From Actinophytocola xanthii (GTDB lineage Bacteria; Actinomycetota; Actinomycetes; Mycobacteriales; Pseudonocardiaceae): a stretch of 64,000 nt of DNA. Every line of letters starts with the position of its first letter. The stretch's first letter is position 1. This document shows positions 8,950 to 28,214 of this stretch, one piece after another. Both the position numbers and the translations under genes were made by a program. The stretch covers positions 1-64,000 of the forward strand of contig NZ_MSIE01000018.1 in the NCBI RefSeq assembly GCF_001921205.1, read 5' to 3'. Below the pieces are notes generated by a model. That model was not told the origin of the DNA. It did no database searches and saw only the letters and a list, made by a program, of their open reading frames with translations.

Positions 8950-10392
8950 ATGGACTCCCGCCTGGGCCGGCGTGCGTTTCTGACTGGTGCTGCCGCCGTG
9001 GGGGTGGTCGCGTTCGACCCCGCCGGGACCGGCTGGGTCACCGCCGCCGAGGCCGCGCCGGACGCGGTCCGGCTCCCGGAGCTGGACGGGGAGCTGGTCG
9101 TCGACGAGGCGTCGCTCGCCGAGGCCGCGGACGACTACGGGCACATCGTGCACCGGCGGCCGGTCGCCGTACTGCGGCCGGGTTCAGTTCGGGACATCGT
9201 GCTGGTCGTCCGGTACGCCAACCGGCACGGGCTGCGGGTGGCCATGCGCGGGCAGGGCCACTCGACGTTCGGCCAGGCCCAGGTCCGCGGCGGCGTGGTG
9301 ATCGACTCGCGGACGCTGGCCACGGTGCACCGGGTGGAGGCCGACCACGCGGTCGTGGACGCCGGCGTGCAGTGGCTCGAGCTGGTGCGGGCGTCGCTGC
9401 AGAAGGGGCTCACACCCCCGGTGAACACCGACTACCTCGGTCTCTCGGTGGGCGGCACGCTGTCGATCGGCGGGATCGGCGGCGCCTCCTCGCACTTCGG
9501 CCTGCAGGTGGACAACGTGCTGGCCCTCGAGGTGGTGACCGGTGAGGGCCGACTTCTCCGGTGTTCGCCCACGGAGCGGCCCGACCTGTTCGATGCCGTC
9601 CTGGGCGGCCTCGGCCAGTTCGCGATCATCGTCCGCGCGACCGTACGGCTGGTGCCGGCGGAGACCACCGCGCGCGTCTACAACCTCTTCTACCCCGACC
9701 TCGAGTCGATGACCGCCGCCCAGCGCCGGGCGCTGGCCGACCGCCGGTTCAGCTACCTCGAGGGCCAGCTGCTCCCCGCCGAGGGCGGCGGCTGGCAGTT
9801 CATGCTCGAGGGCGTCGAGTACTACACCCCACCCGCGGCGCCCGACGACGCCGCACTGCTGGCCGGCCTGGACCCGGCGTCGACCCAGGTGTCCGAGGTC
9901 CCGTACTTCGAGTGGCTGAACCGGGTGTACGCGCTGGTCGAGCAGCTCAAGCCGTTACGGCTGCCGGGCCCGTGGATCAACGTGTTCCTACCCGACGGGG
10001 CGGTGGATGCCTACGTCACCGAAGTCCTGGCCGACCTGACCCCAGCCGACACCGGCGGTGTCGTCCTGCTGTACCCGGTGCCACGTGACCTGGCCACGCG
10101 GCCGTTCGTCTCCCTCCCCGACAGCGAGGTGGTGTTCCTGCTGGCCATCCTGCGCACCGTGCCCACGCAGGACGAGGCCGAGGTGCGCCGGCTCCTGGCG
10201 GTCAACCGGACTCTGTACGACCGCGCCCGGGCTGTGGGAGGCACCCACTACCCGGTAGGCGCCATCCCCCTCACCCCAGCGGACTGGCGCGCCCACTACG
10301 GGCCGGACTACGGGCGGTTCGCCCGGGCCAAGCGAACCTACGATCCGCGGCACGTTCTGGCCCCCGGCCAGCGCATCTTCGACCACCGGTGA
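8950..10392 (+). CDS. Tat-exported cytokinin-dehydrogenase-like FAD oxidase
   Basis: The product is 480 residues. A twin-arginine signal (GRRAFLTGAAAVGVVAF) precedes a PCMH-type FAD domain. The GQGHSTFGQAQ segment places His104 where cytokinin dehydrogenases attach FAD covalently. Further family-like stretches are TDYLGLSVGGTLSIGGIGG, AVLGGLGQFAIIVRA and PWINVFLP. Known cytokinin dehydrogenases oxidatively cleave the N6-isoprenoid side chain of cytokinins. Here the enzyme would act outside the cell after folded export. ATG 8950 has AAGGAG upstream. It stands alone between the redox operon and tRNA-Lys, so context does not confirm the substrate; another secreted BBE/CKX-type oxidase is the alternative. 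Confidence 0.82.
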   Translation: MDSRLGRRAFLTGAAAVGVVAFDPAGTGWVTAAEAAPDAVRLPELDGELVVDEASLAEAADDYGHIVHRRPVAVLRPGSVRDIVLVVRYANRHGLRVAMRGQGHSTFGQAQVRGGVVIDSRTLATVHRVEADHAVVDAGVQWLELVRASLQKGLTPPVNTDYLGLSVGGTLSIGGIGGASSHFGLQVDNVLALEVVTGEGRLLRCSPTERPDLFDAVLGGLGQFAIIVRATVRLVPAETTARVYNLFYPDLESMTAAQRRALADRRFSYLEGQLLPAEGGGWQFMLEGVEYYTPPAAPDDAALLAGLDPASTQVSEVPYFEWLNRVYALVEQLKPLRLPGPWINVFLPDGAVDAYVTEVLADLTPADTGGVVLLYPVPRDLATRPFVSLPDSEVVFLLAILRTVPTQDEAEVRRLLAVNRTLYDRARAVGGTHYPVGAIPLTPADWRAHYGPDYGRFARAKRTYDPRHVLAPGQRIFDHR

Positions 10393-10397
10393 GCCAA

Positions 10398-10414
10398 GTC
10401 CGGCCATACCGGAC
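10398..10414 (+). terminator. Short perfect hairpin after the CKX-like gene
   Basis: GTCCGG and CCGGAC form a 6-bp stem with a 5-base loop, 6 bp after the stop codon. It may terminate transcription before the tRNA gene. Confidence 0.45.
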
Positions 10415-10452
10415 ACGCTCCCCAGGACCTCGGTAGCATGACGCCCAAGTAC

Positions 10453-10525
10453 GGGCCGTTAGCTCAATTGGTAGAGCTGCGGACTTTTAATCCGTAGGTT
10501 CTGGGTTCGAGCCCCAGGCGGCCCA
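10453..10525 (+). tRNA. tRNA-Lys (anticodon UUU)
   Basis: A full cloverleaf of 73 nt is present. The acceptor stem GGGCCGT pairs with GCGGCCC plus discriminator A. The D arm GCTC/GAGC, anticodon stem GCGGA/TCCGT with loop CTTTTAA, and T arm CTGGG/CCCAG with TTCGAGC also form. CCA is not encoded. A TAGCAT box at 10434-10439 is a plausible -10. The 3' part from position 40 onward is the attachment site of the integrated element, which restores an intact tRNA at this end. Confidence 0.97.
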
Positions 10526-10530
10526 CTCTT
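10492..10530 (+). repeat. attL: 39-bp attachment repeat overlapping tRNA-Lys 3' end
   Basis: It is identical to 28176-28214. It spans tRNA positions 40-73 plus five bases downstream. Similarity continues after a one-base gap (TGCCTGGTCA in both). Integration here reconstitutes the complete tRNA. Confidence 0.93.
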
Positions 10531-10585
10531 CTGCCTGGTCAACGAGGCTGTTCAGCCGGGAACCTTGATCGACTCCCACCGAAAC

Positions 10586-11764
10586 TCACCTCTTTCCCAG
10601 AGTGGCGTCCAGCGCGTTCGCGCCGTCGCGGCTGGCCGCCTGCCGTCCCATGTACACGTCCTGGGTCATCGACGGGTGTGCGTGGCCCAGGATGTCCGCG
10701 ATCTGGCGTGCCGTCAGCCCCGCGTCGTCGAGCAGGGTCGCCACGGTCTTGCGGAAGGTCCGGAAGGTCACCCACTCGAACCCCGCACGCTGCTTGAACG
10801 GGTTCCACGCCCGGTTACGGACGTTGGTCGCTTCGCGGATCGTGCCGGTCGTGCTCGGGAAGATCGGACCGGACGTCGGCCGCCCGAGCAGCTCGTGCCG
10901 GTCGACGAGCATCGTCACGCACCAGCGCGGGAGCGGGATCGGCCGCTCCGCGTTGTCCGTCTTCCCGCGGTTGACGATCCTGCCCTTCCCCGTCGCCCGA
11001 ATCACATTGCCGGCCATCGTGAGTTCCCCGGCATCAGGGTCGAAGTCGCGCCAGTCGGCGGCGAGCGCTTCGCCGGTCCGCTCACCGGTGGCCAGGAAGA
11101 ACCGCACGAGGTCGGGCAGGTCGGCGGCCACCGCCTTGTCGTCGGTGTCGAGCTTGCCGAACAGCTCCAGCACCTCGGACGTGGTCAGCGCTCGCGGCCG
11201 TTGTGGCCGGTTCCTGGCTTTCTTGGACTCGATGCGGCCGATGTCCCGGGCCGGGTTGGTCTCGAACGCGCCGACCCGGACGCCGAACATGCACACGTTC
11301 CCGATGACCGACTTCACGATCTTGGCCGAACTGGCGCTCATCCTGTCGCGCGTCTTCTGGCACACCTGGTCGAGCACAACGGGAGAGGTCGCGATCTCCC
11401 GAGCCCGCAGTTCGCCGATCTCCGGCAGGACGATCAGCGTCAGCCGGTTCCGGTACGTGTCGACGGAGCCCCACGAGTTGAACCCGCGGCCGGCGTCTCG
11501 CTCGAACTCCGCGAGCCACCCGAGAGCGACATCTCGGAACCGGCTGTCCGGTCCGAACGTGCCTGCTTGTGCGGGCGTCACCCAGTCCCGAATGGCTTCC
11601 TTGAGCCGGTTCACGGCTGCCGTCTCGGAGCCGGCGTCCCGCTGAACCTGGTAGACCTTCCCGTCGTAGTGGCGGTACTTGCACCGCGCACGGAACCGCC
11701 CCGGTGTCACCTCGTTCACCTTGATCTTCCCGTAGGTGCCGAGCGGCATCGGCGGCCGAGGCAT
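10586..11764 (-). CDS. int: Tyrosine site-specific recombinase (AICE integrase)
   Basis: This 392-residue integrase has an N-terminal SAM-like core-binding domain (~70-185) and a C-terminal catalytic domain. Visible catalytic residues are Arg229 in ATGERTGEAL, Arg338 in RTFRKTVATLL, His361 in LGHAHPS and the nucleophile Tyr371 in QDVYMG. The first histidine of the usual HxxR box is an arginine here (R335-T-F-R338). ATG 11764 shares one base with the stop of the excisionase gene. The gene ends 55 bp from attL, the usual AICE arrangement. It should recombine attP with the tRNA-Lys 3' end and, together with Xis, excise the element. Confidence 0.93.
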   Translation of the reverse strand: MPRPPMPLGTYGKIKVNEVTPGRFRARCKYRHYDGKVYQVQRDAGSETAAVNRLKEAIRDWVTPAQAGTFGPDSRFRDVALGWLAEFERDAGRGFNSWGSVDTYRNRLTLIVLPEIGELRAREIATSPVVLDQVCQKTRDRMSASSAKIVKSVIGNVCMFGVRVGAFETNPARDIGRIESKKARNRPQRPRALTTSEVLELFGKLDTDDKAVAADLPDLVRFFLATGERTGEALAADWRDFDPDAGELTMAGNVIRATGKGRIVNRGKTDNAERPIPLPRWCVTMLVDRHELLGRPTSGPIFPSTTGTIREATNVRNRAWNPFKQRAGFEWVTFRTFRKTVATLLDDAGLTARQIADILGHAHPSMTQDVYMGRQAASRDGANALDATLGKR

Positions 11765-11949
11765 CAGGCGACCTCCGCGGGAAGCCTCTCGAACCACTCG
11801 ATCACGTCGGCCGGGCGGAAGCGGACGTACTTGCCGACCCGGCGTCCGGGCGGGCCGTAGCCCTTGGTGCGCCACTGGTAGAGGGTCTGCTCGGGGATTC
11901 CCAGGTACTCCGCGACGTCTTTGATGCCCCAGAGCTTGTTGGTGGTCAT
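11764..11949 (-). CDS. xis: Excisionase-type MerR/HTH_17 DNA-binding protein
   Basis: This 61-residue protein has a winged-helix HTH: WGIKDVAEYLGIPEQTLYQW, followed by the wing (VGKYVRFRPADVIEWFE). It matches small excisionases/recombination directionality factors of AICEs. It overlaps the rep stop by ATGA and the integrase start by one base, so rep-xis-int form a tightly coupled operon. Its role is to bend att-site DNA and favour excision. Confidence 0.9.
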   Translation of the reverse strand: MTTNKLWGIKDVAEYLGIPEQTLYQWRTKGYGPPGRRVGKYVRFRPADVIEWFERLPAEVA

Positions 11950-13295
11950 GCTGCTGGTTCCTGTTCTGCTCTGTGCCTTGTGAGGCGCGATTGCCGGGTG
12001 CGATCGGCGATGGCTGCGGCGAGTTCGCGTTCGGCGTCGTCGGCGTAGCCGGTACCGGTGAACTCCCAGTCGTTGATCACGGTGATGTCGTCGAAGTCCT
12101 CGGCGGGAATGCCCAGGGCGGTCAGGCGCTCGGCGAGCTGGTGCGCTTGTCGATCACCCCGGAGGGCCTTGAAGGTGGTCGAGTAAGCGCGGGACTTGGT
12201 GAGGAAGTGGCCGCGGAAGCCGAGCATGTGCGCCCAGCGCCGCAGGTTCAGGTCCTCGTACCGGTCGAGCCCACCGAGGTTCCACGCGGTTTGGATCATG
12301 CGCCGGTGGTGGTCGGAGACGCGCAGGTGGTCGATGTCCAGTTGGGAGCGGATGGGGCGGTCGGCGGCTTCGGTCTTGCCGGTTCCTTTGGTGGCGTACT
12401 TGGCGATGTAGCCGGCGAGGCGTTTCTCGCTGATCTGCCCGTCGTCGTCCTCGACGTCGTGTTCGCGGGTGATGGGGCGGATGTCGACTTGTGCGCCCCA
12501 CGCGAGCTGGAGAACACCGCCGTCGGGTCGGACGGTCTTGACCTCGGCGGCGGCTGCCGCCGCTCGGATGGAGGTTTCCAGGAGGTCGGTGGTGGCCCAG
12601 GCCGGCGGAGTGTCGGCCGCGCCCTCGGGGCCGTCGAGGCGGACCACGGCATGGAAGTGGACGAGGCCGCGTCGCTGGTACTCGGCCACCTTGCCGTAGG
12701 AGAGGCGGGCGACCTGGGCGAACTCGCGGACGCGGATGCCGGCGCGTTTGGCGATCTCGCGTCGGAGGCGCGTGACGAATCGGTGCCACAGGACGCCGGT
12801 GTGGGCTTGCCAGAGCACCGCGCCGGGGTAGTCGTAGTGGTCAGGGTCCAGCGGTGTGCCGATGCGCGGGTCGTGCTCGTGGTGACGGTCGCCGCAGGGG
12901 CAGCGCAGCGGGCGGCCGGCAGAGCTGAACGCTCGGTTGTGGACCTGTCCGAAAGAGGGCGGGGTGAGGGTGACGAACGCGCGTGGGCGGTCGGTGACCG
13001 ATTCGGGGACGCCTTTGGAGCCACCGGAAAGGCCAGCGCGAACGAGGTGGAAGGCGTCGGCGGCGTAGCGGTCGGAGCAGGTCGGGCAGATCGCGCTGCG
13101 GCGGTTGCCGCAGGGCACCCAGGCCGTTCCCGCGTGCTCGTCGACCAGGGCGCCGGTGGGGGTGTGCACGAGGCGGGAGGAGCCGAGGAGCCGGATCGGT
13201 TTCGCGCATCCGCCGATCGCTTCGACCCGTGTGCGCCAGTCCTGGTAGTCGGCGGCGCGGAGCCGGGCGGCGATTCGATCGTCTGTTGTGAACAG
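11946..13295 (-). CDS. repSA: RepSA-like rolling-circle replication initiator
   Basis: The 449-residue protein has the two signatures of rolling-circle initiators: an HUH motif, VHFHAVV at ~212-218, and the tyrosine motif YIAKYATKGTG at ~296. A cysteine-rich N-terminal region (CGNRRSAICPTC, CPCGDRHH) probably binds zinc. It would nick the element's double-strand origin and start replication of the excised circle. The first ordinary in-frame start is GTG 13169. However, the 42 codons upstream continue the family N-terminus (IAARLRAADYQDW, then EAIGGCAKPIRL), and no ATG/GTG/TTG precedes them before a stop. A CTG at 13295, nine bases after a perfect AGGAGG (13305-13310), is therefore the likely start. 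Confidence 0.88.
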   Translation of the reverse strand: MFTTDDRIAARLRAADYQDWRTRVEAIGGCAKPIRLLGSSRLVHTPTGALVDEHAGTAWVPCGNRRSAICPTCSDRYAADAFHLVRAGLSGGSKGVPESVTDRPRAFVTLTPPSFGQVHNRAFSSAGRPLRCPCGDRHHEHDPRIGTPLDPDHYDYPGAVLWQAHTGVLWHRFVTRLRREIAKRAGIRVREFAQVARLSYGKVAEYQRRGLVHFHAVVRLDGPEGAADTPPAWATTDLLETSIRAAAAAAEVKTVRPDGGVLQLAWGAQVDIRPITREHDVEDDDGQISEKRLAGYIAKYATKGTGKTEAADRPIRSQLDIDHLRVSDHHRRMIQTAWNLGGLDRYEDLNLRRWAHMLGFRGHFLTKSRAYSTTFKALRGDRQAHQLAERLTALGIPAEDFDDITVINDWEFTGTGYADDAERELAAAIADRTRQSRLTRHRAEQEPAA

Positions 13296-13301
13296 AGGGC
13301 A

Positions 13302-13901
13302 TCACCTCCTTGTGTCTGTTGTTTCGAGGACTCGCCGGGCGAGGTCGGCCGGCACACGGGCGAGACGTTGGATGTCCTCGGGGGACGGTTCTCGGCCGTC
13401 CGCTCGTGTTGTCGTGATCGCGGCGTCGATGCGTGCGGTGATGTCCGCTGGGAGCTTGACGCGCGCCGGTGTTGGCTCAGCCGGTGGGAGCGCGGGCGGG
13501 GTTGGCTGAGCGGGAGTGTCTGGTGTGGACGTGTGGGGCATCCGTCGCATGAGGAGCTTGACGACCGCCAGGAAGCCGAGTGCTGGCATGGCGGCGACCA
13601 GCCAGCCCGCCGGGGAGCGTTCGGCCTCGGCGACTTGGGCCGTCATCTGGACCAGGACGCCGAAGACGAGCACCAGCATGGGGAAGGTGAACGGTCGGCC
13701 GGCGGAGCGGTCGTGGTGGATCTCGATACCGGCGACGATCGCGATGCCCTCGATCACGACCGCTGTGGCCCAGGCGAGCCAGCCGGTTTGGCCGTGGTTC
13801 GCGGCCCAGTCGTGGGTGTGGGTGAAGCCGGCCGCCGCGCCGATCCCGCCGAGCACGACCGCGACGCCGATCCGGATCGTGTCGGCGAACCGAGCACGCA
13901 T
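13302..13901 (-). CDS. DUF2637 / SpdB-like membrane protein of the transfer region
   Basis: The 199-residue product starts at ATG 13901 after GGAGGGACC. It has four hydrophobic segments in the first ~130 residues (for example IGVAVVLGGIGAAAGFT and FPMLVLVFGVLVQMTAQVA), then a Pro/Thr-rich linker and a short helical C-terminus rich in basic residues. DUF2637 proteins occur on Streptomyces plasmids and AICEs beside rep or tra genes and are linked to plasmid spread (Spd) between septate compartments. It ends 6 bp before the likely CTG start of rep; its stop (13302-13304) lies beside the rep Shine-Dalgarno, so it is probably coupled to rep. Confidence 0.82.
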   Translation of the reverse strand: MRARFADTIRIGVAVVLGGIGAAAGFTHTHDWAANHGQTGWLAWATAVVIEGIAIVAGIEIHHDRSAGRPFTFPMLVLVFGVLVQMTAQVAEAERSPAGWLVAAMPALGFLAVVKLLMRRMPHTSTPDTPAQPTPPALPPAEPTPARVKLPADITARIDAAITTTRADGREPSPEDIQRLARVPADLARRVLETTDTRR

Positions 13902-13912
13902 GGTCCCTCCAG

Positions 13913-14593
13913 TCAGGTGATGGCGCGTCGCACCGCGGCGACCGCTTCGGCCGGGGTGAGGTCCAGCTCGCCGGCCCAGCTCGTGACGTGCGCCCAGTGG
14001 CGGTGGCCGGGTCCGGTGGCGCCGGCCGCGACGTGTTCGGCGAGCACGAGCGCGGTGGTGGCCTGGTTGTGGGAGACGGTGCGACCCGGCAGCCAGGAGA
14101 CCCGCCACCGCCCGTACGGCTTGTGCTTGTCGACGGCGTGAGCGGTGTGGCCGCTGGTTCCGTGCATGGTCGTCTCGCCGCCGGTGATCTTCATGGGTTT
14201 GGCTGGGGTCAGCGCCTGCCAGCGGTTGAGCAGGGCGTGTCCGCGTCTGGTCAGCCGTAGCGGTGTCACTGGGCGACGGACCGCGCCGTGTCGGCAGGTC
14301 ACGGTGTCCCGGACGGGTCGCCGTTCGATGTAGTCGCCGGCCGTGAGCGAGGCCAACACGTTGTCGTCCGCGGCGAGCCGGACGCGGGTGTCGTCCTCGA
14401 ACACCACGTACCGGTCGCTGTCGTCGAGCATCCCGTAGCGGCCCTGGTGCACCTCGGCGAGGACATCCGCCGCAACCTCTGGCCGCCCCGACGAGCGTGC
14501 TCGACGAGCGCGAGCGGGTGGAGACTGCCGAGTGGAGGTGCCCGACGCCGGCCGGGGTGCGGCGCCGAAGAGGTCGAGCTGGTCGCGGCTCAC
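13913..14593 (-). CDS. AICE-conserved hypothetical protein with winged-helix-like segment
   Basis: The 226-residue product starts at GTG 14593, which overlaps the upstream stop in GTGA. After a Pro/Arg-rich N-terminus, residues ~55-125 resemble a winged helix (YVVFEDDTRVRLAADDNVLA and RRGHALLNRWQAL). The C-terminal ~75 residues form a second compact segment ending in LTPAEAVAAVRRAIT. It has no membrane helix and no catalytic motif. It sits between Spd-like membrane genes and the DUF2637 gene, so a role in transfer or replication control is possible but not shown. Confidence 0.65.
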   Translation of the reverse strand: MSRDQLDLFGAAPRPASGTSTRQSPPARARRARSSGRPEVAADVLAEVHQGRYGMLDDSDRYVVFEDDTRVRLAADDNVLASLTAGDYIERRPVRDTVTCRHGAVRRPVTPLRLTRRGHALLNRWQALTPAKPMKITGGETTMHGTSGHTAHAVDKHKPYGRWRVSWLPGRTVSHNQATTALVLAEHVAAGATGPGHRHWAHVTSWAGELDLTPAEAVAAVRRAIT

Positions 14594-14805
14594 CAGAACC
14601 ACCACCAGTGGCCCCGAGCGTCGAACGCCCACTCGCGCAGCAGCCCACGCACGGCTAGGAGGTCGAGCAGGATCGCGGCGATCACGGCGAGGGTGAAGGG
14701 GTGTGTTCCGGGACTCCAGACCAGTGCCGCGAGGCCGACGAGCGCGGCCAGGATGAGCGTGACCTTGAGCCAGGTCCGCAGGACCCATGCGGTGGTCGAC
14801 CACAT
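14590..14805 (-). CDS. Small membrane protein of transfer region (Spd-like)
   Basis: This 71-residue protein has two membrane helices (VTLILAALVGLAALVW and FTLAVIAAILLDLLAV) and an aromatic C-terminus rich in Trp. ATG 14805 overlaps the stop of the preceding gene (ATGA), and its own stop overlaps the next start (GTGA). Small hydrophobic proteins in this position of AICEs are usually counted as spread (Spd) functions; here that is inferred from position. Confidence 0.72.
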   Translation of the reverse strand: MWSTTAWVLRTWLKVTLILAALVGLAALVWSPGTHPFTLAVIAAILLDLLAVRGLLREWAFDARGHWWWFW

Positions 14806-15032
14806 CACGCGACCTCCCGCCGTACCGCTGGCGCCGGGACGCGGTGGACTGGTTCGGGTGTTTCGAATCGGGTGGTGTGCCAGGCCCAGATCAGCCATCT
14901 GATCCCGCCGAGTCCGGCGAGGACCAGCAGCACGAGCAGCAACAGCGCGACGAGGGGGATGGCCGCGCTCACTGCCCCGAGGACGCAGAAGGCGAGCAGG
15001 GCGCGGGTGACGAGGGTTCGTTCGGTGTGCAT
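14805..15032 (-). CDS. Small membrane protein of transfer region (Spd-like)
   Basis: This 75-residue protein is dominated by hydrophobic residues from ~8 to 52, enough for two membrane-spanning segments, followed by a short polar tail. It begins one base after the TraB-like gene's stop and is coupled by ATGA overlap to the next small membrane gene. It is likely part of the intramycelial spread functions of the element. Confidence 0.72.
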   Translation of the reverse strand: MHTERTLVTRALLAFCVLGAVSAAIPLVALLLLVLLVLAGLGGIRWLIWAWHTTRFETPEPVHRVPAPAVRREVA

Positions 15033-15033
15033 G

Positions 15034-16410
15034 TCAGGCCACCACTTCCAGGTTGGTCCGGCCGGGGTTGCCGGCGCGGACGAAGGTGACGAGCTGGTCG
15101 ATCTCGCGGTCGTCGACGTAGGCGGCGCGAACGCGGACCGGGGTACGGGTCCGGGGGCGCACGACGTAGCCGATGCCCGCGGTTTCGGGGACGTTGGGGA
15201 TCTCGTCGGCGAGCGCGCCGCGCAGTCGGGCGTCCTCGCCGAGCACGCCGTCGACCTGACCGGCCGCGGTGAGACGCAGGCAGACGCGGACGGTGAACAG
15301 GTCCCGAACGGGCACGGTGTCCTTGGTGGGCTCCTGAACGAACCCGACCATGTGATGACCCGACGAGCGGCCCTGAGAGCCGACGAGAGCGAGGTTGCGT
15401 CGGTTCTCCCGGGCGTGGTCGCCGTACGCGAGCAGCGCGCCCAGCTCGTCGGCGATCAGCAGGTTGATCGGGTTCTCCGCACTGACCGAAAGCTTCCGCT
15501 TACCGCGCCCGGCGAGCCGCCGTTGCCCCTCGCCCAGGTCGGTGACGTAGTCGGCGATCAGGTCGGCGCAGTCCTCACCGGTCGCGGCGTAGCGGTGAGC
15601 GATCGGCGCGAGCTTGGCGAACTCCATCTGCTTCGGGTCGCACACCCACAGCCGCACCAGCCCGTCGCGCAGCATCGGCGCGAGCGTCCGCAGCAGCGAC
15701 CACCCGATCGAGTTCTTCCCCGCGCCGGTCGCCCCGGCGACAAACCAGTGGTTGCCGGTCAGCGACTCGCGCCACTCCCCGCCGTACTCGTCGTCACCCA
15801 AGTAGATCGATCCGAGGTCGACGGCGTCGGAGTCGGCCGGCATCTCCGGGGCGTCGATGATCTCGGTGAACGGTTCGGAGTGCTGGACGATCAGCCCGAT
15901 CACCCGCGGCTTGACCTTCTCGACGCCGACCCGCTCGACGTTGAGCGCCGCGCACAGCTCCTCCACGCGGTCGGTGAACGACCGCATCGACTGACCGCGC
16001 GCCAGCTGCACCCACACCGTGTCCACGGTCGGCGAGTGCGCCCGCACCTTCAGCACCCGCGGGAACCGGTCCACTCCGGTCTTGCGGTGGGTGGTGAACA
16101 GCTCGCAGTCCTCCATGGCCCGCCGCCACCGCGCACCCATGTAGGTCCACCATCGGCGCCGCCAGGACCGCAGCTGCGGAGCCACCCACCGGTCGAACGT
16201 GTCGGGGTGAGCCCGGTACCAGGCACCCAGCACCACCGCCGCCGTGCCAGCTCCCGTCCCGACCGCAGCCGGCCCCAGTTCGGCGGTCCCGACCCCGATC
16301 GCTCCCGGCACCGCGAGGCTGCCCGGATGTCGTACCGCCCAGGCCGCCGCACGCCACTCCGCACCCGGCCGGCGCCGCGACTCACCGCCCGCCCTGCTGG
16401 TCTTGCCCAT
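15034..16410 (-). CDS. traB: FtsK/SpoIIIE-like DNA transfer ATPase (TraB/TraSA family)
   Basis: The protein is 458 residues with hydrophobic N-terminal segments (~30-65), then an FtsK-type motor domain. Walker A is GATGAGKNS (226-234), where the usual serine/threonine after the lysine is asparagine followed by serine, as in several TraB proteins. Walker B is LLIADE (317-322). AICE and Streptomyces plasmid TraB proteins form hexameric pores that pump unprocessed double-stranded DNA between mycelia and recognise short clt repeats. It is the only conjugation motor in the element. No relaxase is present, in line with this single-protein transfer mode. The gene heads the run of Spd-like, rep, xis and int genes. 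Confidence 0.9.
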   Translation of the reverse strand: MGKTSRAGGESRRRPGAEWRAAAWAVRHPGSLAVPGAIGVGTAELGPAAVGTGAGTAAVVLGAWYRAHPDTFDRWVAPQLRSWRRRWWTYMGARWRRAMEDCELFTTHRKTGVDRFPRVLKVRAHSPTVDTVWVQLARGQSMRSFTDRVEELCAALNVERVGVEKVKPRVIGLIVQHSEPFTEIIDAPEMPADSDAVDLGSIYLGDDEYGGEWRESLTGNHWFVAGATGAGKNSIGWSLLRTLAPMLRDGLVRLWVCDPKQMEFAKLAPIAHRYAATGEDCADLIADYVTDLGEGQRRLAGRGKRKLSVSAENPINLLIADELGALLAYGDHARENRRNLALVGSQGRSSGHHMVGFVQEPTKDTVPVRDLFTVRVCLRLTAAGQVDGVLGEDARLRGALADEIPNVPETAGIGYVVRPRTRTPVRVRAAYVDDREIDQLVTFVRAGNPGRTNLEVVA

Positions 16411-17895: not shown

Positions 17896-17986
17896 AGAAC
17901 TATCTCTATAGAACAGCATCGCTCGACAGCTGTCAATAGAACTAGCTCTATAAGGCTGCGGAAGCCGGGTTGCGCAGTAGAGATAG
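17896..17986. promoter_or_regulatory. Three operator-like boxes between pra and the GntR repressor
   Basis: Two direct 16-bp boxes, AGAACTATCTCTATAG (17896-17911) and AGAACTAGCTCTATAA (17938-17953), start exactly 42 bp apart. An inverted copy of the core, TAGAGATAG, lies at 17978-17986 just before the repressor's ribosome site. The shared core is CTAKCTCTA. These AT-rich boxes lie where both divergent promoters must be. They are the best candidates for KorSA-type autoregulation and for repression of pra. Confidence 0.68.
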
Positions 17987-18014
17987 AGTTATCCGCAACC
18001 TGAGGAGGCGACCC

Positions 18015-18779
18015 ATGGGCATCGGCTACCGCGAGCTGGCGTCAGCACTACGCGACGCCATCCAGGCCGGGACCTACCCGGCCGGCAGCACGCTGCCCAA
18101 ACAAGACGAGATCGCTGAGGAACACGGCGTCAACGTCAACACCGTCCGCAAGGCGGTGGGCGTCCTCGAAGCCGAAGGCCTGGTCACCCCGGTCCGCCGC
18201 AAAGGCACCGTCGTCCGCGACCGCCCCCCGATGAGGCGCCTCGGCGTCCAGCGCTACGCCAAGAGCAAATGGAAGTTCGGCCTGGTCGCCTTCGCCGCCG
18301 ACCGCGAGCAGTCCGGCCGCGACTGGAAGCCCACCGACCAGACCAACAAGGTCCAGCGCACCGAGGCCGACGCCCACACAGCCGAGGCCCTCGGTGTCGA
18401 GATCGGAGCACCGGTCTACGAGCGCGCCCGCCTGGTCAAGGACGCCGGCACGCCGACCCACACGCTCACCAGCTACTACCTCCCCGAACACGTGGAAGGC
18501 ACCCCGTTGGTCGACCCGACACCCGGCCCAGCCACCCCCGGTGGCGGTTTCGCCGTCCTCACGATGCAGGGCTACGAGCCAGACCACATGACCGAAACCT
18601 TCCACGCCCGCATGCCCACCCCCGAGGAACTGGCCGAACTCGAACTACCCGCCGGTGAGCCCGTGATGGTCCTCCACCGCACCACATACACCGCCAACGA
18701 CGTGGCGGTGGAGTTCGCCCGAGGCATCCACGCCGCCAGCCGCTTCTCGTGGTCCTACAGCTTCAAACTCCCCGACTGA
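18015..18779 (+). CDS. korSA: KorSA-like GntR/HutC family repressor
   Basis: The 254-residue protein starts at ATG 18015 behind AGGAGG. Residues ~3-70 form a GntR winged helix (LASALRDAIQAGTYPAGSTL, then TVRKAVGVLEAEGLV). Residues ~90-245 form a UTRA ligand-sensing domain (ARLVKDAGTPTHTLTSYYLP). In pSAM2 the homologous KorSA silences pra and its own gene, keeping the element integrated; the operator-like boxes at 17896-17986 fit this. What the UTRA domain senses is unknown. The YdcF gene follows 12 bp later and is probably co-transcribed. Confidence 0.87.
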   Translation: MGIGYRELASALRDAIQAGTYPAGSTLPKQDEIAEEHGVNVNTVRKAVGVLEAEGLVTPVRRKGTVVRDRPPMRRLGVQRYAKSKWKFGLVAFAADREQSGRDWKPTDQTNKVQRTEADAHTAEALGVEIGAPVYERARLVKDAGTPTHTLTSYYLPEHVEGTPLVDPTPGPATPGGGFAVLTMQGYEPDHMTETFHARMPTPEELAELELPAGEPVMVLHRTTYTANDVAVEFARGIHAASRFSWSYSFKLPD

Positions 18780-18791
18780 GAGAGGACGACC

Positions 18792-19457
18792 GTGCCCGAC
18801 ACCATCCCGGCCGAAGTCCGTGCCGACGTCGAGACCCTGTGGAACTACCACCGCCTCAACCACAAGCTCAAGCCCACGGATGTCGGCATCGGCCTAGGCA
18901 GCCACGACATCGGCGTAGCCGACTACACCGCCGAGCTCTACCACCGCGGCCTGTTCCCCCTCATCGTCTTCACCGGCGCCAACGCCCCCACCACCATCGA
19001 CCGCTTCCCCCGCGGCGAAGCCGTCCACTACCGCGAACGCGCACTAGAGCTGGGCGTCCCCGACGAGGCCATCAAGGTCGAACCCCAAGCCCGCAACACC
19101 GGGGAGAACCTCCTCCTCACCCGCGACCTCCTGGCCGCCGAGGGCATCACCCCAGCGTCCATCACCCTCATCTCCCGGCCCTACCAAGAGCGCCGCGCCT
19201 ACGCCACCTGCCGCAAACTCTGGCCCGAAGTAGACGTCACCTGCACCTCCCAACGCATCACCCTCGACGACTACGCCGCCAGCATCGGCGACATCCCCCG
19301 CATGATCAACGTCATGGTCGGCGACACCCAGCGTATCCGCCTTTATGCGGAGAACGGCTACGCCATCCCCCAAGACATCCCCGCCGACGTGCAAACCGCC
19401 TACGATCGTCTCGTTAGTGCCGGTTACAGCTCCCATCTCATACCGGAAGCTGCATAG
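18792..19457 (+). CDS. YdcF/DUF218 family protein
   Basis: This 221-residue protein has the YdcF pattern: an N-terminal strand with DVGIGLGSHD, then LIVFTGANAPTT, a glutamate-containing EPQARNTGENLLL motif and ITLISRPYQERRA. YdcF-like proteins have a Rossmann-like fold and bind S-adenosylmethionine or act on envelope precursors; the physiological role is unsettled. Unlike many members it lacks membrane helices, so it should be cytoplasmic. GTG 18792 has GAGGA upstream. It is co-directional with the repressor, so it may be under the same lysogeny-like control. Confidence 0.82.
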   Translation: MPDTIPAEVRADVETLWNYHRLNHKLKPTDVGIGLGSHDIGVADYTAELYHRGLFPLIVFTGANAPTTIDRFPRGEAVHYRERALELGVPDEAIKVEPQARNTGENLLLTRDLLAAEGITPASITLISRPYQERRAYATCRKLWPEVDVTCTSQRITLDDYAASIGDIPRMINVMVGDTQRIRLYAENGYAIPQDIPADVQTAYDRLVSAGYSSHLIPEAA

Positions 19458-19801: not shown

Positions 19802-22800
19802 TTACGATCGTCCCCATTCTTGCAGCGTCGTAAAAACAAATTCGCTCTCCAGCTCGTGGCCCCGGTCAAGACTCTTTAGGAGGGCCGTGGACCTCGTCAT
19901 GCGGTCAGGATAGTAAAGCTCTGGTGCCAGGCACGTGGGGCAGTCGCTCAGAAGACAGAACGGTGACAGCGGGAGGGGCATGTCGTGTTGAGTGATGAGG
20001 TAAAGATGGTCGTTTGCCAAAGGACGCGAGGTGTCGAAGGTAAACATTTCGAAGTCAGGGTGATCGCCCATCAGGGCCAGACCCGAAACTCGAAACCTTC
20101 CGGAGGTGGGTAGCCATTGGAGGCGCTCTGTATGAACCCACCGGGTACGGGCGAGGAAGGCGCATCCTGACAGGCTGCTGAGCATCGGCGTTTCAACGCG
20201 CCCAAGGCTCTTTTCCAGCTCTGCCCGTGTCCGAGGGCCCGCGCCGTGCCGAATTTTGTTGCGCAGCTTAACCAGTTGCTCGAGATCGGCGATCAGGCCC
20301 GTGCCGCCCTTCTTGCGGGCGGTCGCCTCGACGAGGCCGACAGCAGGTTCACCGTGCTGCCGGGCATCCTCAGCCACTGCTTTGACCACCGCCAGCCAGT
20401 GTCCGAGGGAGACGCCGCCCTGCTCAACGGACTGACTCCACTGCACGATGGGTGGCAGATCCTGACGACCTCGGTCGGCGGCCACAGCAAGCGCCATGAT
20501 GCCCAAAGAGAGGATCAAAGCCTCGGTACATTGGATCGCCGCCTCGTGCTTCTCGGCCAGGGAGAGAGAGTGCCGGAACTTGCGTACTGCGCGGGCGACC
20601 GCGTAGGGGTATGACTCCTGGAACAGCATGTAAGGATCGTTATGCCGACGCAGGTTCTGCGCTGTCAAGGAACTAATCGCGGCGGCATCATCCAAACGAA
20701 TTCGCCGCGCTGATCCCGACCCACTTTCAAAGATTCGGGTCCGAGCCCGGCGGAGTTCGTCCTGAATGTGCGCGGCTTCCCGTTCCCCTTCCTCGAGCCT
20801 GGCAAGAGAGGCGCGGATCTCTGATGGGTCGCCGTCGCACTTGGGGATCCAAATGTCAGCCATCTCCCGCGCCTTGATGCGCGGGATAGTTCCATACTTA
20901 GGAAACTGCTGTTCAGCCAGCGGGCTGGACAGGTATGCGATCAAGTATTCGAGGGGAAGAACCTCCTGGATAATCCTGATGATAATCAGGCCCTGGCCAG
21001 GCTGTACACCGTCGTACTGGCTTGGGATAGGCGTCCAGTGACGCGCTCCGGCAAGATCTCGCCCGACGATGTCGCCCTGTCGCAACCGGTGCCGAGGATC
21101 ACGCGCGTCTGCACGTACGGGAAGTTCAGCCACGTCCGGCAGCGTGCTGGTCAACAAGGTCGGTGTCAGAACTCGCCTTCGTTCATCCGTATCAGTCGAG
21201 TTCGGCTCCTTGTCCAGGTCGGAACTGCGCACTGCCCCGGAGAAAGTCTCAGCGAAGTCTCCGAGTCGAATACCTTCCTGAGCCACCTGCCGCAACTCAT
21301 GGGTCTGGCGGAAATGCTCTAGCGTCAAATTGTAATTCTCCGCGGCGATCTCCGCTCTGATCACGCAGAAGCTTTGATCGGTCCGAGCGCGCCCACGCTC
21401 GTTGCTGTGTCGCAGCCGCCAACGCCGCAGGAGATCTGGGAGGTTGTTGCGCGCGTGATCGCCAGCATCGAGCGTGCTGTCACGCGACAGCCCGAGCTTG
21501 TTCTCTGCCAGTAGAGGTGCTCGCCGGTTGGCCAAGCTCCATCCGTCTGCCTTGAGTTCGTAGAACCACACGCTGTCTGCCTGTCCTGCATCCTTGATAA
21601 AGAATAGGATCGCACCTGACACTCCCGAGTACGGCTTGAAAGCACCGTTAGGAAGCTTGACCACAGCCTCCAGTCCATGCTCGTCGACAAGCATCCGACG
21701 TAATTCAACGTGAGCAGCACTCGTGCCGAACAGCAGCCCGGCGGGGACAATCACGGCCGCACGTCCCCCTCGCTTCAACAGCCGCAAGATCGCAGCAAGG
21801 TGAAGAAGGTCGGAATTCCTCGTTTGGACCAGTTCCAGCAACTCGGGCGCCACGGCCTTGTAATCGATGTTACCGCCGAACGGCGGATCGGCCAGAACGA
21901 CCGAGTATCGCTCGTCGTCCCCTCCAGGCCTATTCACGAGATTGTCTCGGTGCCGCAGATCGGCACCTTCGCGGCCCTGAAGCATCAACCGCATGCTGCT
22001 CAACCGCAACATGGTCCTGTCGAAGTCGAAGCCATGCAGCCTGCTGCTCACTTCCAAAGCGCTTCGCTGCGAGGTGTTTGGGTCAGACCGGTCCACGAAC
22101 TGAGCCGCAGCGCTCAGCAAACCGCCCATGCCACATGTCGGATCGCACACCTCGTCATCGGGTCCAGGCTCAGCCATAGCCACCATCAGAGCCGCCAGAT
22201 GGCGAGGGGTAAGGAATTGACCCATGGCACCTGCCGTGAGCGCCTTGGCAAGCAGATGCTCATATAGATCGGCCGCGTCGCCGGCCGAGAAACTCTCTTC
22301 GAGCAGGCTGACAGTTTTGGCCAGTAGGCCGGGGGTCGGGATTGTAAAACGAGCGTCCTTGACGTGTTGCGAATACACTACTCCAGCGATCGTGTGACTG
22401 CGTAGCCATGGGAACACCTCGTCGGCCATCGACGTGTACATGCGTTGAGGCGTCAGGCGGAGGAAATGAGACCAGCGAAGGTGCTGGTCGCCTTGGGCAA
22501 AGATCGATCCTCCCTCAGGCATCTCCGACGGCGCGACCCGCTGGTCCCAGTGTTCTTGCAGGCGGTCCAGTTCGCGGAGATACAAGAGGTGGGAGATTTG
22601 TTCCACGGTCTCCACAGGATTGGAGATCCCTGCTGCCCAGAAGGCGTCGAAAAGCCGGGCGGTGAGAGTGCGCGAGAAACCGTCGTTCGTCACGTACTGG
22701 AGACTATCCACCTGCACACGGTTCGACGGCGAACCCCACCGACCTGTCCCGCAGGCGGGGCAAGTGCACGTCTCAGGGAGCCTACAGCCCTTCTCGGTCA

Positions 22801-22867
22801 CGGTCCATCCAAAGTCATGTTGTCCATGATGTCGTCGAGCACGACCAGCGAAGACTAATGTGCTCAT
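19802..22867 (-). CDS. N6-adenine DNA methylase-specificity fusion with C-terminal HEPN-like domain (putative defence protein)
   Basis: This 1021-residue multidomain protein has a cysteine-containing extension at residues ~1-50 (CTCPACGTG), an HsdM-type helical N-domain at ~60-185, and an N6-adenine methyltransferase at ~195-480. The methyltransferase has SAM motif VCDPTCGMGG (240-249) and catalytic ADPPFGG (326-332, the NPPF-type motif). Residues ~530-715 look like a type I target-recognition half-domain followed by a helical spacer (IPRIKAREMADIWIP, LARLEEGEREAAHIQDEL). The last ~300 residues form a separate helical domain with RNKIRH at 869-874, which fits the HEPN RNase motif R-N-x3-H. 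No restriction subunit gene adjoins it. The start (ATG 22867) has no good ribosome site, and a later start near residue 51 is possible. It lies in the cargo of the mobile element with clearly lower GC. Confidence 0.82.
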   Translation of the reverse strand: MSTLVFAGRARRHHGQHDFGWTVTEKGCRLPETCTCPACGTGRWGSPSNRVQVDSLQYVTNDGFSRTLTARLFDAFWAAGISNPVETVEQISHLLYLRELDRLQEHWDQRVAPSEMPEGGSIFAQGDQHLRWSHFLRLTPQRMYTSMADEVFPWLRSHTIAGVVYSQHVKDARFTIPTPGLLAKTVSLLEESFSAGDAADLYEHLLAKALTAGAMGQFLTPRHLAALMVAMAEPGPDDEVCDPTCGMGGLLSAAAQFVDRSDPNTSQRSALEVSSRLHGFDFDRTMLRLSSMRLMLQGREGADLRHRDNLVNRPGGDDERYSVVLADPPFGGNIDYKAVAPELLELVQTRNSDLLHLAAILRLLKRGGRAAVIVPAGLLFGTSAAHVELRRMLVDEHGLEAVVKLPNGAFKPYSGVSGAILFFIKDAGQADSVWFYELKADGWSLANRRAPLLAENKLGLSRDSTLDAGDHARNNLPDLLRRWRLRHSNERGRARTDQSFCVIRAEIAAENYNLTLEHFRQTHELRQVAQEGIRLGDFAETFSGAVRSSDLDKEPNSTDTDERRRVLTPTLLTSTLPDVAELPVRADARDPRHRLRQGDIVGRDLAGARHWTPIPSQYDGVQPGQGLIIIRIIQEVLPLEYLIAYLSSPLAEQQFPKYGTIPRIKAREMADIWIPKCDGDPSEIRASLARLEEGEREAAHIQDELRRARTRIFESGSGSARRIRLDDAAAISSLTAQNLRRHNDPYMLFQESYPYAVARAVRKFRHSLSLAEKHEAAIQCTEALILSLGIMALAVAADRGRQDLPPIVQWSQSVEQGGVSLGHWLAVVKAVAEDARQHGEPAVGLVEATARKKGGTGLIADLEQLVKLRNKIRHGAGPRTRAELEKSLGRVETPMLSSLSGCAFLARTRWVHTERLQWLPTSGRFRVSGLALMGDHPDFEMFTFDTSRPLANDHLYLITQHDMPLPLSPFCLLSDCPTCLAPELYYPDRMTRSTALLKSLDRGHELESEFVFTTLQEWGRS

Positions 22868-23399: not shown

Positions 23400-23888
23400 C
23401 TACTTCCTAAATTTCAGGCGTGCGAAGTGAATAGTCAAAAATATCGCGCTCACAATTCCTAGCCCTGCGGCTACGTAACCTTCTGCCGCGCTATGAGGGC
23501 CGGGTGTGAAGGCCAGAGAGTAGGCGGAGGCTAGTGCGCCACCGCCAGTGAGGCCGCCAAGTGTGTTTGTCACCGCTTCGGTAACGCTAGTTCTGTCAGA
23601 GCCAGAAACTAGTCGAGCGTTGGCTTCATTCACGTGATTACGATCAACCGTCGACAGGTTGTGATTTCGGGCGATCGATATGGCAAGCTGTCCGAGGTTG
23701 CCAAGGTATTCGCCGTGAAGCAACTCAAGCTGTTCCCTCGCTTGCGGGCTGAGAGACATTCGTTCTTTGGGCCGGCGTACCAGTTCTTGATTTATGCTTT
23801 GAGCAGCCGCCACTAGGTTCGCAGGGACTTGGGTTGCCTGCCCAGAGGGTTCCCACGTCGCTGGTGATGAATCCTGTGGGTCAGCCAC
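23400..23888 (-). CDS. Cargo membrane protein with two C-terminal helices (unknown function)
   Basis: This 162-residue protein starts at GTG 23888 with GAGGA five bases upstream. The N-terminal ~90 residues are soluble and helical (LSPQAREQLELLHGEYLGNL). Two hydrophobic segments follow near residues ~105-130 and ~135-155, and the tail is basic (ARLKFRK). It overlaps the upstream gene by 8 bp, so the pair is one operon. Base composition is far less GC-rich than the backbone. I recognise no family. The soluble-plus-two-helix layout is seen in membrane effectors of phage-defence systems, but that is only a structural analogy. Confidence 0.7.
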   Translation of the reverse strand: MADPQDSSPATWEPSGQATQVPANLVAAAQSINQELVRRPKERMSLSPQAREQLELLHGEYLGNLGQLAISIARNHNLSTVDRNHVNEANARLVSGSDRTSVTEAVTNTLGGLTGGGALASAYSLAFTPGPHSAAEGYVAAGLGIVSAIFLTIHFARLKFRK

Positions 23889-24342
23889 GTTTCCTCGTCC
23901 TCTGATTTTCTGAGATCAAGTTGTGAAACAGGGCTTGCTGGGTCGCCAGTGAACGAATCATAGCCCGTAGCTCGTGATCTTCGATCCAACGGAGATCGGA
24001 TCGGTCTGCAGTCGATATGTCACGTTTATGGCGTCGGATTGTGCGCTCAAGGAATACAAGTGCCAGTACCATCGAGACGGTCGTGGCTGTTATAAGTGCG
24101 ATCCAAACGCCCGCTTGCTCGACTATGGCACTGGCTGCTATTGTCAGGGCGGCTATATTAAGGAGTAGCGCCGCGAGGGAAGGAAATGCGGTAAGATCTC
24201 TTGTCTTTGCTCTATGTCTTGCGGCGATTGCCACCTCGCGTTCTAGCGAGAATGTAATTGCCGCTCTCGAACTGGGCTCCTCGTGGCTGAGATCGACCAC
24301 GTGGAGTAGCTCGGAATCTCCCTTGTCGTCGTCATCTGACAT
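23881..24342 (-). CDS. Cargo two-helix membrane protein (unknown function)
   Basis: This 153-residue protein starts at ATG 24342, with GGAG six bases upstream. After an acidic N-terminus come a helical segment (ITFSLEREVAIAARHRAKT), two membrane helices (residues ~55-75 and ~83-102) and a charged C-terminal coil (IEDHELRAMIRSLATQQALF). The helix-2TM-helix order recalls 2TM pore-type domains such as SLATT; assignment is not secure. It is paired with the overlapping downstream gene and has the same lower GC content. Confidence 0.7.
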   Translation of the reverse strand: MSDDDDKGDSELLHVVDLSHEEPSSRAAITFSLEREVAIAARHRAKTRDLTAFPSLAALLLNIAALTIAASAIVEQAGVWIALITATTVSMVLALVFLERTIRRHKRDISTADRSDLRWIEDHELRAMIRSLATQQALFHNLISENQRTRKRG

Positions 24343-28081: not shown

Positions 28082-28175
28082 CCGGGTCCGTCCAGAGGTG
28101 GCCGGGACACGTTCTGCCAGGTCACGAGGGATGTTAGTAGGGGATGACAGACGGCCGATGAGAGCGATCACGAAA

Positions 28176-28214
28176 CCGTAGGTTCTGGGTTCGAGCCCCA
28201 GGCGGCCCACTCTT
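28176..28214 (+). repeat. attR: 39-bp attachment repeat
   Basis: It is an exact copy of 10492-10530, consisting of the 3' third of tRNA-Lys plus five bases. No tRNA 5' part is present here. This marks the distal end of the integrated element. Confidence 0.93.

Follow-up and report, generated by a model that had tools for sequence, protein, structure and literature searches.

Can a single protein couple the reading of DNA to the cutting of RNA? This question is raised by a gene in a stretch of 64,000 nucleotides from Actinophytocola xanthii (contig NZ_MSIE01000018.1, positions 1 to 64,000), the whole of which we call the window. A first-pass annotation, made from the sequence alone, read the gene as an N6-adenine methyltransferase joined to a type I-like target-recognition region (TRD) and a C-terminal domain with the motif of HEPN ribonucleases, and proposed it as a defence system. 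We find that it is a real, conserved and mobile fusion with a probable HEPN effector and a candidate role in defence. The features of the gene are as follows.

19802..22867, minus strand: methylase-specificity-HEPN fusion gene, an open reading frame of 1021 amino acids
22307..22651, minus strand: HsdM_N domain, residues 73-187 (Pfam PF12161, E 4.3e-6)
21293..22273, minus strand: N6_Mtase domain, residues 199-525 (Pfam PF02384, E 1.5e-42)
22121..22144, minus strand: S-adenosylmethionine-binding motif DPTCGMGG, residues 242-249 (from the sequence; conserved in relatives)
21878..21889, minus strand: catalytic motif IV, here DPPF, residues 327-330 (NPPF, NPPL or HPPF in close relatives)
20714..21286, minus strand: single HsdS-type TRD, residues 528-718 (hhalign to Methylase_S, 93.4%)
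20126..20635, minus strand: HEPN-like domain, residues 745-914 (AlphaFold models, with HEPN structures as the top VIA-align rows)
20246..20263, minus strand: RN-x3-H motif RNKIRH, residues 869-874 (N and H in 24 of 25 representatives)
19805..20125, minus strand: C-terminal region with GDHP, P969, CxxC (976/979) and H1004 (from conservation; model confidence, pLDDT, mostly <50)

The reading frame stays open through all 1021 codons, and the protein has a single match within its own genome. Its start codon is uncertain, as the frames of two relatives, L003 and L004 (L numbers denote loci), begin at about residue 47 and about residue 59, respectively. The methyltransferase assignment is confirmed by the Pfam matches to HsdM_N and N6_Mtase, and the motifs VCDPTCGMGG and ADPPFGG occupy residues 240-249 and 326-332. 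Past residue 525, the Pfam scan called no domain in this protein, and Pfam lists no Methylase_S match for any of 12 aligned family members. Profile comparison nevertheless agrees with the proposed type I-like TRD: residues 528-718 of the close group reached 93.4% over 166 columns when aligned by hhalign to a Methylase_S profile built from 18 loci, compared to 0.1-6.6% for four reversed-profile decoys. The TRD of the L028/L030 group reached 89.1% (decoys <=0.6%), and those of L059 and L060 were assigned through their likeness to L028 and L030. For the group of L026, L027 and L035 the value was 1.0%, and a TRD is assumed there from position alone.

Past the TRD lies a C-terminal module of about 280 residues that has no clear match in Pfam, NCBIfam or PADLOC. 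Judging from structural models, we consider it very probable that this module has a HEPN fold. Two AlphaFold models were used. The first covers residues 690-1021 and was made with five sequences (mean pLDDT 56, and 52-86 in blocks of ten residues across the HEPN part); the second is full length (mean pLDDT 35) and is poor outside the HEPN part. In VIA-align, HEPN structures, HepT among them, are closest to the predicted fold (about residues 745-905) in both. For the first model they fill rows 1-5, namely 8xeh (Z 11.7, root-mean-square deviation 2.5, 120 of 124 residues aligned), 1jog (10.3), 6m6w (10.3), 2hsb (9.7) and 2q00 (8.2), and the first unrelated structure is talin (8.2). Lower ranks are taken by 4nqf, Csm6 8jbb and 1o3u, and HEPN structures make up 8 of 50 rows. 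For the full-length model, rows 1-7 are all HEPN, representing four different proteins (one HepT accounts for four of these rows), and HEPN structures fill 11 of the 50 rows; the best is again 8xeh (Z 11.1, deviation 2.6, 126 of 130 aligned), and the first unrelated row has Z 7.7. The structures 1jog, 1wwp and 2q00 are given as HEPN in Table 1 of a 2013 survey (PMC3710099).

The position of RNKIRH can also be compared with the motif of HepT. In the hhalign alignment to the HepT profile, which covers 107 columns, the RN-x3-H motifs of the two are in register. If the alignment is gapless past the motif, the ends of the VIA-align ranges would place R869 and H874 exactly on HepT R97 and H102 in three of five HepT rows, and three residues away in the other two. 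In HepT SO_3166 of Shewanella, according to PMC4621449, the motif RNIAVH lies at a helix end in the predicted structure, mutants of R97 and H102 lost toxicity, and N98 was implicated. The HEPN reading of the first-pass annotation is backed by the fold ranking of VIA-align and by the conservation of RN-x3-H in distant homologues; neither sequence profiles nor Foldseek by itself decides the matter.

It is important to consider how readily such a motif might arise by chance. Shuffling the whole protein yields the bare pattern R[NDH]x3H in 32% of cases, and shuffling residues 690-1021 yields it in 10%; the protein itself has a second match at residue 12. For the stricter RNx3H the figures are 7% and 1.2%, respectively. 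The bare motif is therefore weak, and RNKIRH is meaningful because it is conserved in relatives of 20-37% identity. The first-pass annotation would have abandoned its reading for a predicted fold unrelated to HEPN in which RNKIRH was buried or poorly kept among homologues; the HEPN reading passes this check, and N870 and H874 are found in 24 of 25 representatives. RNKIRH also fits the HEPN pattern Rx4-6H, in which R is followed by a polar residue. Within the same set of representatives, E782 is invariant (25/25), R869 is present in 19 and replaced by K in 5 (L052-L056), and L027 has one extra residue in the motif (Rx5H). The 25 rows leave out near-duplicates (L004, L005, L058 and L062), fragments or split genes (L029, L057 and the hits in genomes G018, G623 and G642), and plasmid hits H4-H6. 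The last ~110 residues hold a conserved Cys-pair region, modelled with low confidence, that accompanies the HEPN part.

The other parts of the protein are under less constraint. The ratio of nonsynonymous to synonymous substitution rates (dN/dS), estimated from six close genes compared in 15 pairs, is 0.31 for the N-terminal part (60-198), 0.22 for the methylase, 0.15 for the TRD, 0.095 for the HEPN part and 0.12 for the C-terminal tail. The HsdM-like half (N-terminal part plus methylase) is accordingly the most variable and the HEPN part the most constrained. The methylase keeps an intact motif I. In motif IV, three of seven close fused members (L003, L005 and L058) have NPPF and the remaining four DPPF, NPPL, HPPF and HPPF; other fused members carry NPPF, NPPY, SPPF or NPPW, and all 11 relatives that match the methylase part only have NPPF. 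Taken together, the constraint and the pattern in motif IV suggest that the effector end, and not methylation, is the constant function.

We then asked whether the module recurs fused to methylases, as the first-pass annotation had proposed checking. It does: the methylase-TRD-module architecture is found in the window and in at least 12 further loci (L002-L006, L026, L027, L034, L035, L058, L061 and L062). A scan of genome contigs gave 16 loci, of which five (L002-L006, from Actinomadura, two Nocardia and two Streptomyces) are near full-length at 70-79% identity and eleven (L007-L017) match the methylase part only. When the C-terminal part or its profile was used as the query, matches were found, counting the window's own genome, in 7 of 394 genomes of the class, 3 of 100 relatives and 12 of 396 genomes of the phylum. 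The module is also present in 5 of 251 genomes from the phylum of G844, an Ardenticatenaceae metagenome-assembled genome that we take to belong to Chloroflexota. The phylum of G843, an alphaproteobacterial metagenome-assembled genome, gave 0 of 299, an empty answer that carries no weight because the search had no positive control. Among plasmids there were 8 matches in 72,556, all from Streptomyces; 50,697 phage records gave none, and none was found in viral contigs searched by peptide patterns.

Two methylase fusions are interrupted. In L034, which is 54% identical to the window protein across residues 367-1018, a frameshift (~7464-7510) interrupts the methylase, with TRD, HEPN part and C-terminal tail open. 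In L005 (Nocardia vaccinii) a frameshift at ~10448-10469 lies just ahead of RN-x3-H, and a different frame holds the remainder of the HEPN part and the tail; sequencing error, inactivation and frameshifting would all fit.

Other members combine the module with different partners. A TRD without a recognisable methylase precedes it in L025, L028 and L059, and L030 and L060 have very short fronts (L060 was judged methylase-less by length only). Pfam finds N6_Mtase in 9 of 12 aligned members and has no match for the fronts of L025 and L059; hhalign of the fronts of L025, L028 and L059 to the methylase gives <=1.4%. The impression by eye that these three fronts are methylase remnants is unsupported by these values, and we describe them only as not recognisable as methylase. 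Because the HsdM-like half is the most variable and the methylase is unrecognisable in some members, marking DNA may not be essential.

Elsewhere the module is preceded by a ResIII/DEAD helicase in proteins about 1300 residues long, identified by Pfam in L052 and through likeness in L054 and L055, with L056 a shorter frame of this kind; in L051 and L053 it follows stretches that by eye appear to span the membrane. The helicase group (L052, L054-L056) resembles the HEPN fusions to EcoEI-like SF-II helicases described in PMC3710099. In Chloroflexota the module follows a cNMP-binding domain (L146 and L149) or CHAT (L148), or precedes a RecG-C-like domain (L145); in L147 Pfam finds no domain beside the module. 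These Chloroflexota fusions appear to be further candidates for signalling or effector roles. In a tree of 25 modules, the helicase fusions group together (97/98), as do the cNMP fusions (100/99) and the methylase fusions (91/86 for ten, 96/89 for the inner six), with L025 nested inside the latter. The deep forks are unsure because of long branches. The fusion gene does not stand alone but represents one of the architectures in a wider family built on this module. It is possible, to a degree that we put somewhat short of even, that this family is a HEPN and Cys-pair effector module, absent from the family libraries that were scanned, placed behind interchangeable sensors in Actinomycetota and Chloroflexota, of which the methylase version would be a one-gene, DNA-reading trigger of RNA cutting with methylation optional. 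The survey of 2013 recognises 38 HEPN families, with which the module was compared through these libraries only.

How might the protein in the window work? The reading that we favour, with chances that we consider about evenly balanced, is that one chain combines a DNA sensor with an RNase-type effector, which is released by foreign DNA in abortive defence. The front would consist of the HsdM-like methylase and one HsdS-type TRD, and the back of a HepT-like HEPN domain and the conserved Cys-pair region. Bound to host DNA that is modified or undisturbed, the front would keep the HEPN domain silent. Unmarked invading DNA, or disturbance of the DNA-bound front, would free the HEPN domain, which would then cut RNA and stop the cell before the phage could spread. 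The sensor-effector reading builds on the domain composition, the TRD homology, the HEPN-like fold of the predicted models, the conserved motif, the pattern of constraint and the lack of a widely recurring neighbour, whereas RNase activity, control by the state of DNA and defence are inferred. It is in keeping with carriage on mobile elements and plasmids, with type I restriction-modification (R-M) genes beside some copies, and with sister modules behind helicase, cNMP-binding and CHAT domains.

A number of results weigh against this reading. By sequence alone, no search for HEPN reached significance. Pfam calls no HEPN domain in the window protein; its RiboL-PSP model reaches E 0.068-0.22 in a single member (1/20), beside which the unrelated models Sigma70_r3 (E 0.039) and CDC48_N (0.05) do better. 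The PADLOC model RTasHEPN is found in 2 of 20 members (best E 0.014; 0.04 for the window protein), compared to E 0.0023 for the unrelated TniQ; in a separate scan the unrelated PurZ reached E 0.018. The best sequence matches in the PDB are a chemotaxis protein (E 0.47) and a CRISPR-associated protein (E 0.71). Profile alignment by hhalign to known HEPN families is weak (HepT 9-18%, RiboL-PSP 13-23%, DUF4145 <1%; reversed decoys <=2.5%). Foldseek alone gave no match at E <=0.001 and no HEPN structure among its best 50 rows (best E 0.33). The VIA-align scores are all in the range, Z <13, that the tool itself warns can reflect a mere shared arrangement of helices, and both AlphaFold models share the same five species' sequences and have modest confidence. 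In addition, R is replaced by K in L052-L056, and the CHAT member L148 has lost the motif. Motif IV is DPPF, NPPL or HPPF in 4 of 7 close members, so the protective mark may not exist. Finally, the TRD members L030 and L060 have no methylase and cannot methylate, so that control of self and non-self must differ there.

The relaxed methylase is well explained if the HsdM/TRD face serves as a decoy that lures the DNA mimics with which phages inhibit type I enzymes, in which case inhibitor binding rather than the state of the DNA would trigger the HEPN domain and methylation would be dispensable. Motif IV differs from NPPF in 4 of 7 close members but in none of the 11 methylase-only relatives, the methylase has a higher dN/dS than the TRD or HEPN part, and N6_Mtase is unrecognisable in L025 and L059 and found in 9 of 12 aligned members. 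The TRD is usually the fast-changing part of R-M systems, yet it is well preserved here (mean identity 82.5%). DndH provides an example of a restriction effector with an inactive methylase and a TRD (PMC10853773). However, motif I is intact, other fused members carry NPPF, NPPY, SPPF or NPPW, and DPPF may be active, and on balance we regard the decoy as unlikely. Intact motif I and a canonical motif IV in several members would suit an orphan modification enzyme that methylates one host motif and uses its HEPN-like domain as a non-catalytic dimerisation or RNA-binding part. The K for R in 5 of 25 representatives and the loss of the motif in L148 fit this proposal. We nonetheless think it rather unlikely, given that the HEPN part is the most conserved (N and H in 24/25), that the methylase is the part altered or missing, and that a plain dimerisation bundle would not need RN-x3-H.

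A further proposal is that the protein guards a resident type I R-M enzyme and is freed once a phage disables that enzyme, for which PrrC with PrrI is the model (PMC3710099). Genes for type I R-M, named by eye, adjoin L003, L034 and L035. Against this, the window genome has no Methylase_S match, although divergent specificity subunits, like the TRD of the window protein itself, would escape such a search; no R-M gene is among the scanned products of the mobile element, and none is annotated beside L058, L061 and L062, whose gene tables are incomplete. We judge such a guard to be very improbable.

The sensor-effector protein has partial likenesses to several known systems. HepT (SO_3166, PDB 5yep and 6m6w) is alike in predicted helical fold and in a helix-end RN-x3-H that is in register by profile alignment. 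The fusion protein differs in its methylase and TRD, in the extra Cys-pair region, in having no Y two residues past the H, and in its setting: Pfam finds no MNT domain among ten scanned neighbours, which include the nearest genes on either side, and we set aside a HEPN-MNT toxin-antitoxin on this basis. HsdM and HsdS of type I R-M share HsdM_N, N6_Mtase and a Methylase_S-type TRD with it, but it is one chain with a single TRD and no HsdR was found adjoining. PrrC and RloC anticodon nucleases likewise tie a HEPN effector to the sensing of DNA or R-M; their sensor is an ABC ATPase, whereas here it would be the methylase and TRD, and Pfam finds no ABC ATPase. The DUF499-centred, BREX-related Hma systems also bring an N6-methylase and HEPN into one defence logic, but in those systems the DUF499 ATPase carries the HEPN part, and separate genes encode the methylase and the helicase (PMC12839542). 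PglX of BREX and MAD2 of MADS are N6-methylases with weak family matches, from which the fusion differs by its HEPN tail. Membership in either system was rejected: NCBIfam MAD2 scores 66.6 bits with a cut-off of 720 and PglX 13.6 bits with a cut-off of 500, and the ten scanned products include no PglZ, no PglY/BrxC-type protein and no product of other genes of these systems. A type IIG reading was set aside provisionally, as Pfam finds no nuclease domain in the chain, in which residues 1-60 and 915-1021 have no domain assignment.

In the literature searched, which excluded subscription papers and was available in part, we found no description of a methylase-TRD-HEPN chain. PMC3710099 states that HEPN domains associated with R-M systems are not found fused to methylases; its Table 1 nonetheless records that HEPN-M (DUF86) is occasionally fused to nucleic acid methylase domains. 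If the sensor-effector reading is true, the protein would link DNA target recognition to an RNase-type effector in one gene, against the published rule, and would offer a compact test of how the state of DNA keeps abortive RNases silent. A new HEPN branch with many swapped sensors would join the catalogue of bacterial immunity, and seven of the eight Streptomyces plasmid matches, whose annotation reads simply 'N-6 DNA methylase' or 'restriction endonuclease', would become candidate effectors. If the module reading with optional methylation is true, this would be the very architecture whose absence the 2013 survey gave as a rule for R-M-associated HEPN.

The first-pass annotation had placed the gene in low-GC cargo of an actinomycete integrative and conjugative element (AICE), and the AICE genes, att repeats and a dip in GC bear this out. 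The gene is carried on an integrated AICE of 17.7 kb with 42-nt direct repeats at both ends, and GC is 0.59-0.61 over ~19-25 kb, compared to ~0.7 in the surroundings. The AICE features are as follows.

10489..10530, plus strand: att repeat, tRNA-Lys 3' end, at one AICE end
28173..28214, plus strand: att repeat copy at the other AICE end (98% identical)
10586..11875, minus strand: AICE integrase (Pfam PF00589)
11946..13169, minus strand: AICE replication initiator RepSA (Pfam PF20199)
15034..16410, minus strand: AICE FtsK/SpoIIIE-like transfer protein (Pfam PF01580)
17970..18779, plus strand: AICE GntR-UTRA regulator (Pfam)

No restriction endonuclease, helicase or second specificity gene had been noticed next to the fusion gene, and this holds among ten neighbouring products scanned with Pfam, two of which are matchless; several smaller AICE frames lay outside the scan. 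The same ten AICE and neighbour products contain no HsdR, in a search that did not extend to the rest of the genome. The first-pass annotation would have counted an adjacent hidden nuclease subunit against its proposal. Eight close loci were compared (the window, L002-L006, L034 and L058), and no nuclease gene beside the fusion is shared by more than two of them. The same is true of every other neighbour (blastp, E <=1e-6), in a comparison based on rough gene calls that missed some genes. The plasmid copies L061 and L062 are surrounded by transposases and by genes that are mostly hypothetical. Upstream of L058 a gene is annotated as an HNH endonuclease, and genes for SIR2 and ATP-binding proteins lie farther away.

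Some further features of these loci may be mentioned. Upstream of the fusion gene, at 23400-24342 of the window, are two overlapping small genes (162 and 153 amino acids) that appear by eye to encode membrane proteins. The first was uncalled in the neighbour comparison; the second matches Cpta_toxin below the threshold (E 0.0037) and is without a homologue among the other loci compared. A DUF218 (YdcF-like) gene lies directly behind the AICE GntR regulator (18792-19457). At 28128-28210, ARAGORN calls a tRNA-Leu(gag) that carries the tRNA-Lys att repeat and is probably a remnant at the far AICE end, not a true tRNA-Leu. Gene names of the R-M, helicase, PLD or CD-NTase-like kind beside L003, L005, L025, L030, L034 and L035 were assigned by eye. 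On this basis, L025 has a large SNF2-like helicase gene and a PLD-nuclease-like gene (10380-15379), possibly another multi-gene defence locus, and L005 (11763-12710) and L030 (10964-11935) have nucleotidyltransferase genes, 35% identical to each other, that look CD-NTase-like.

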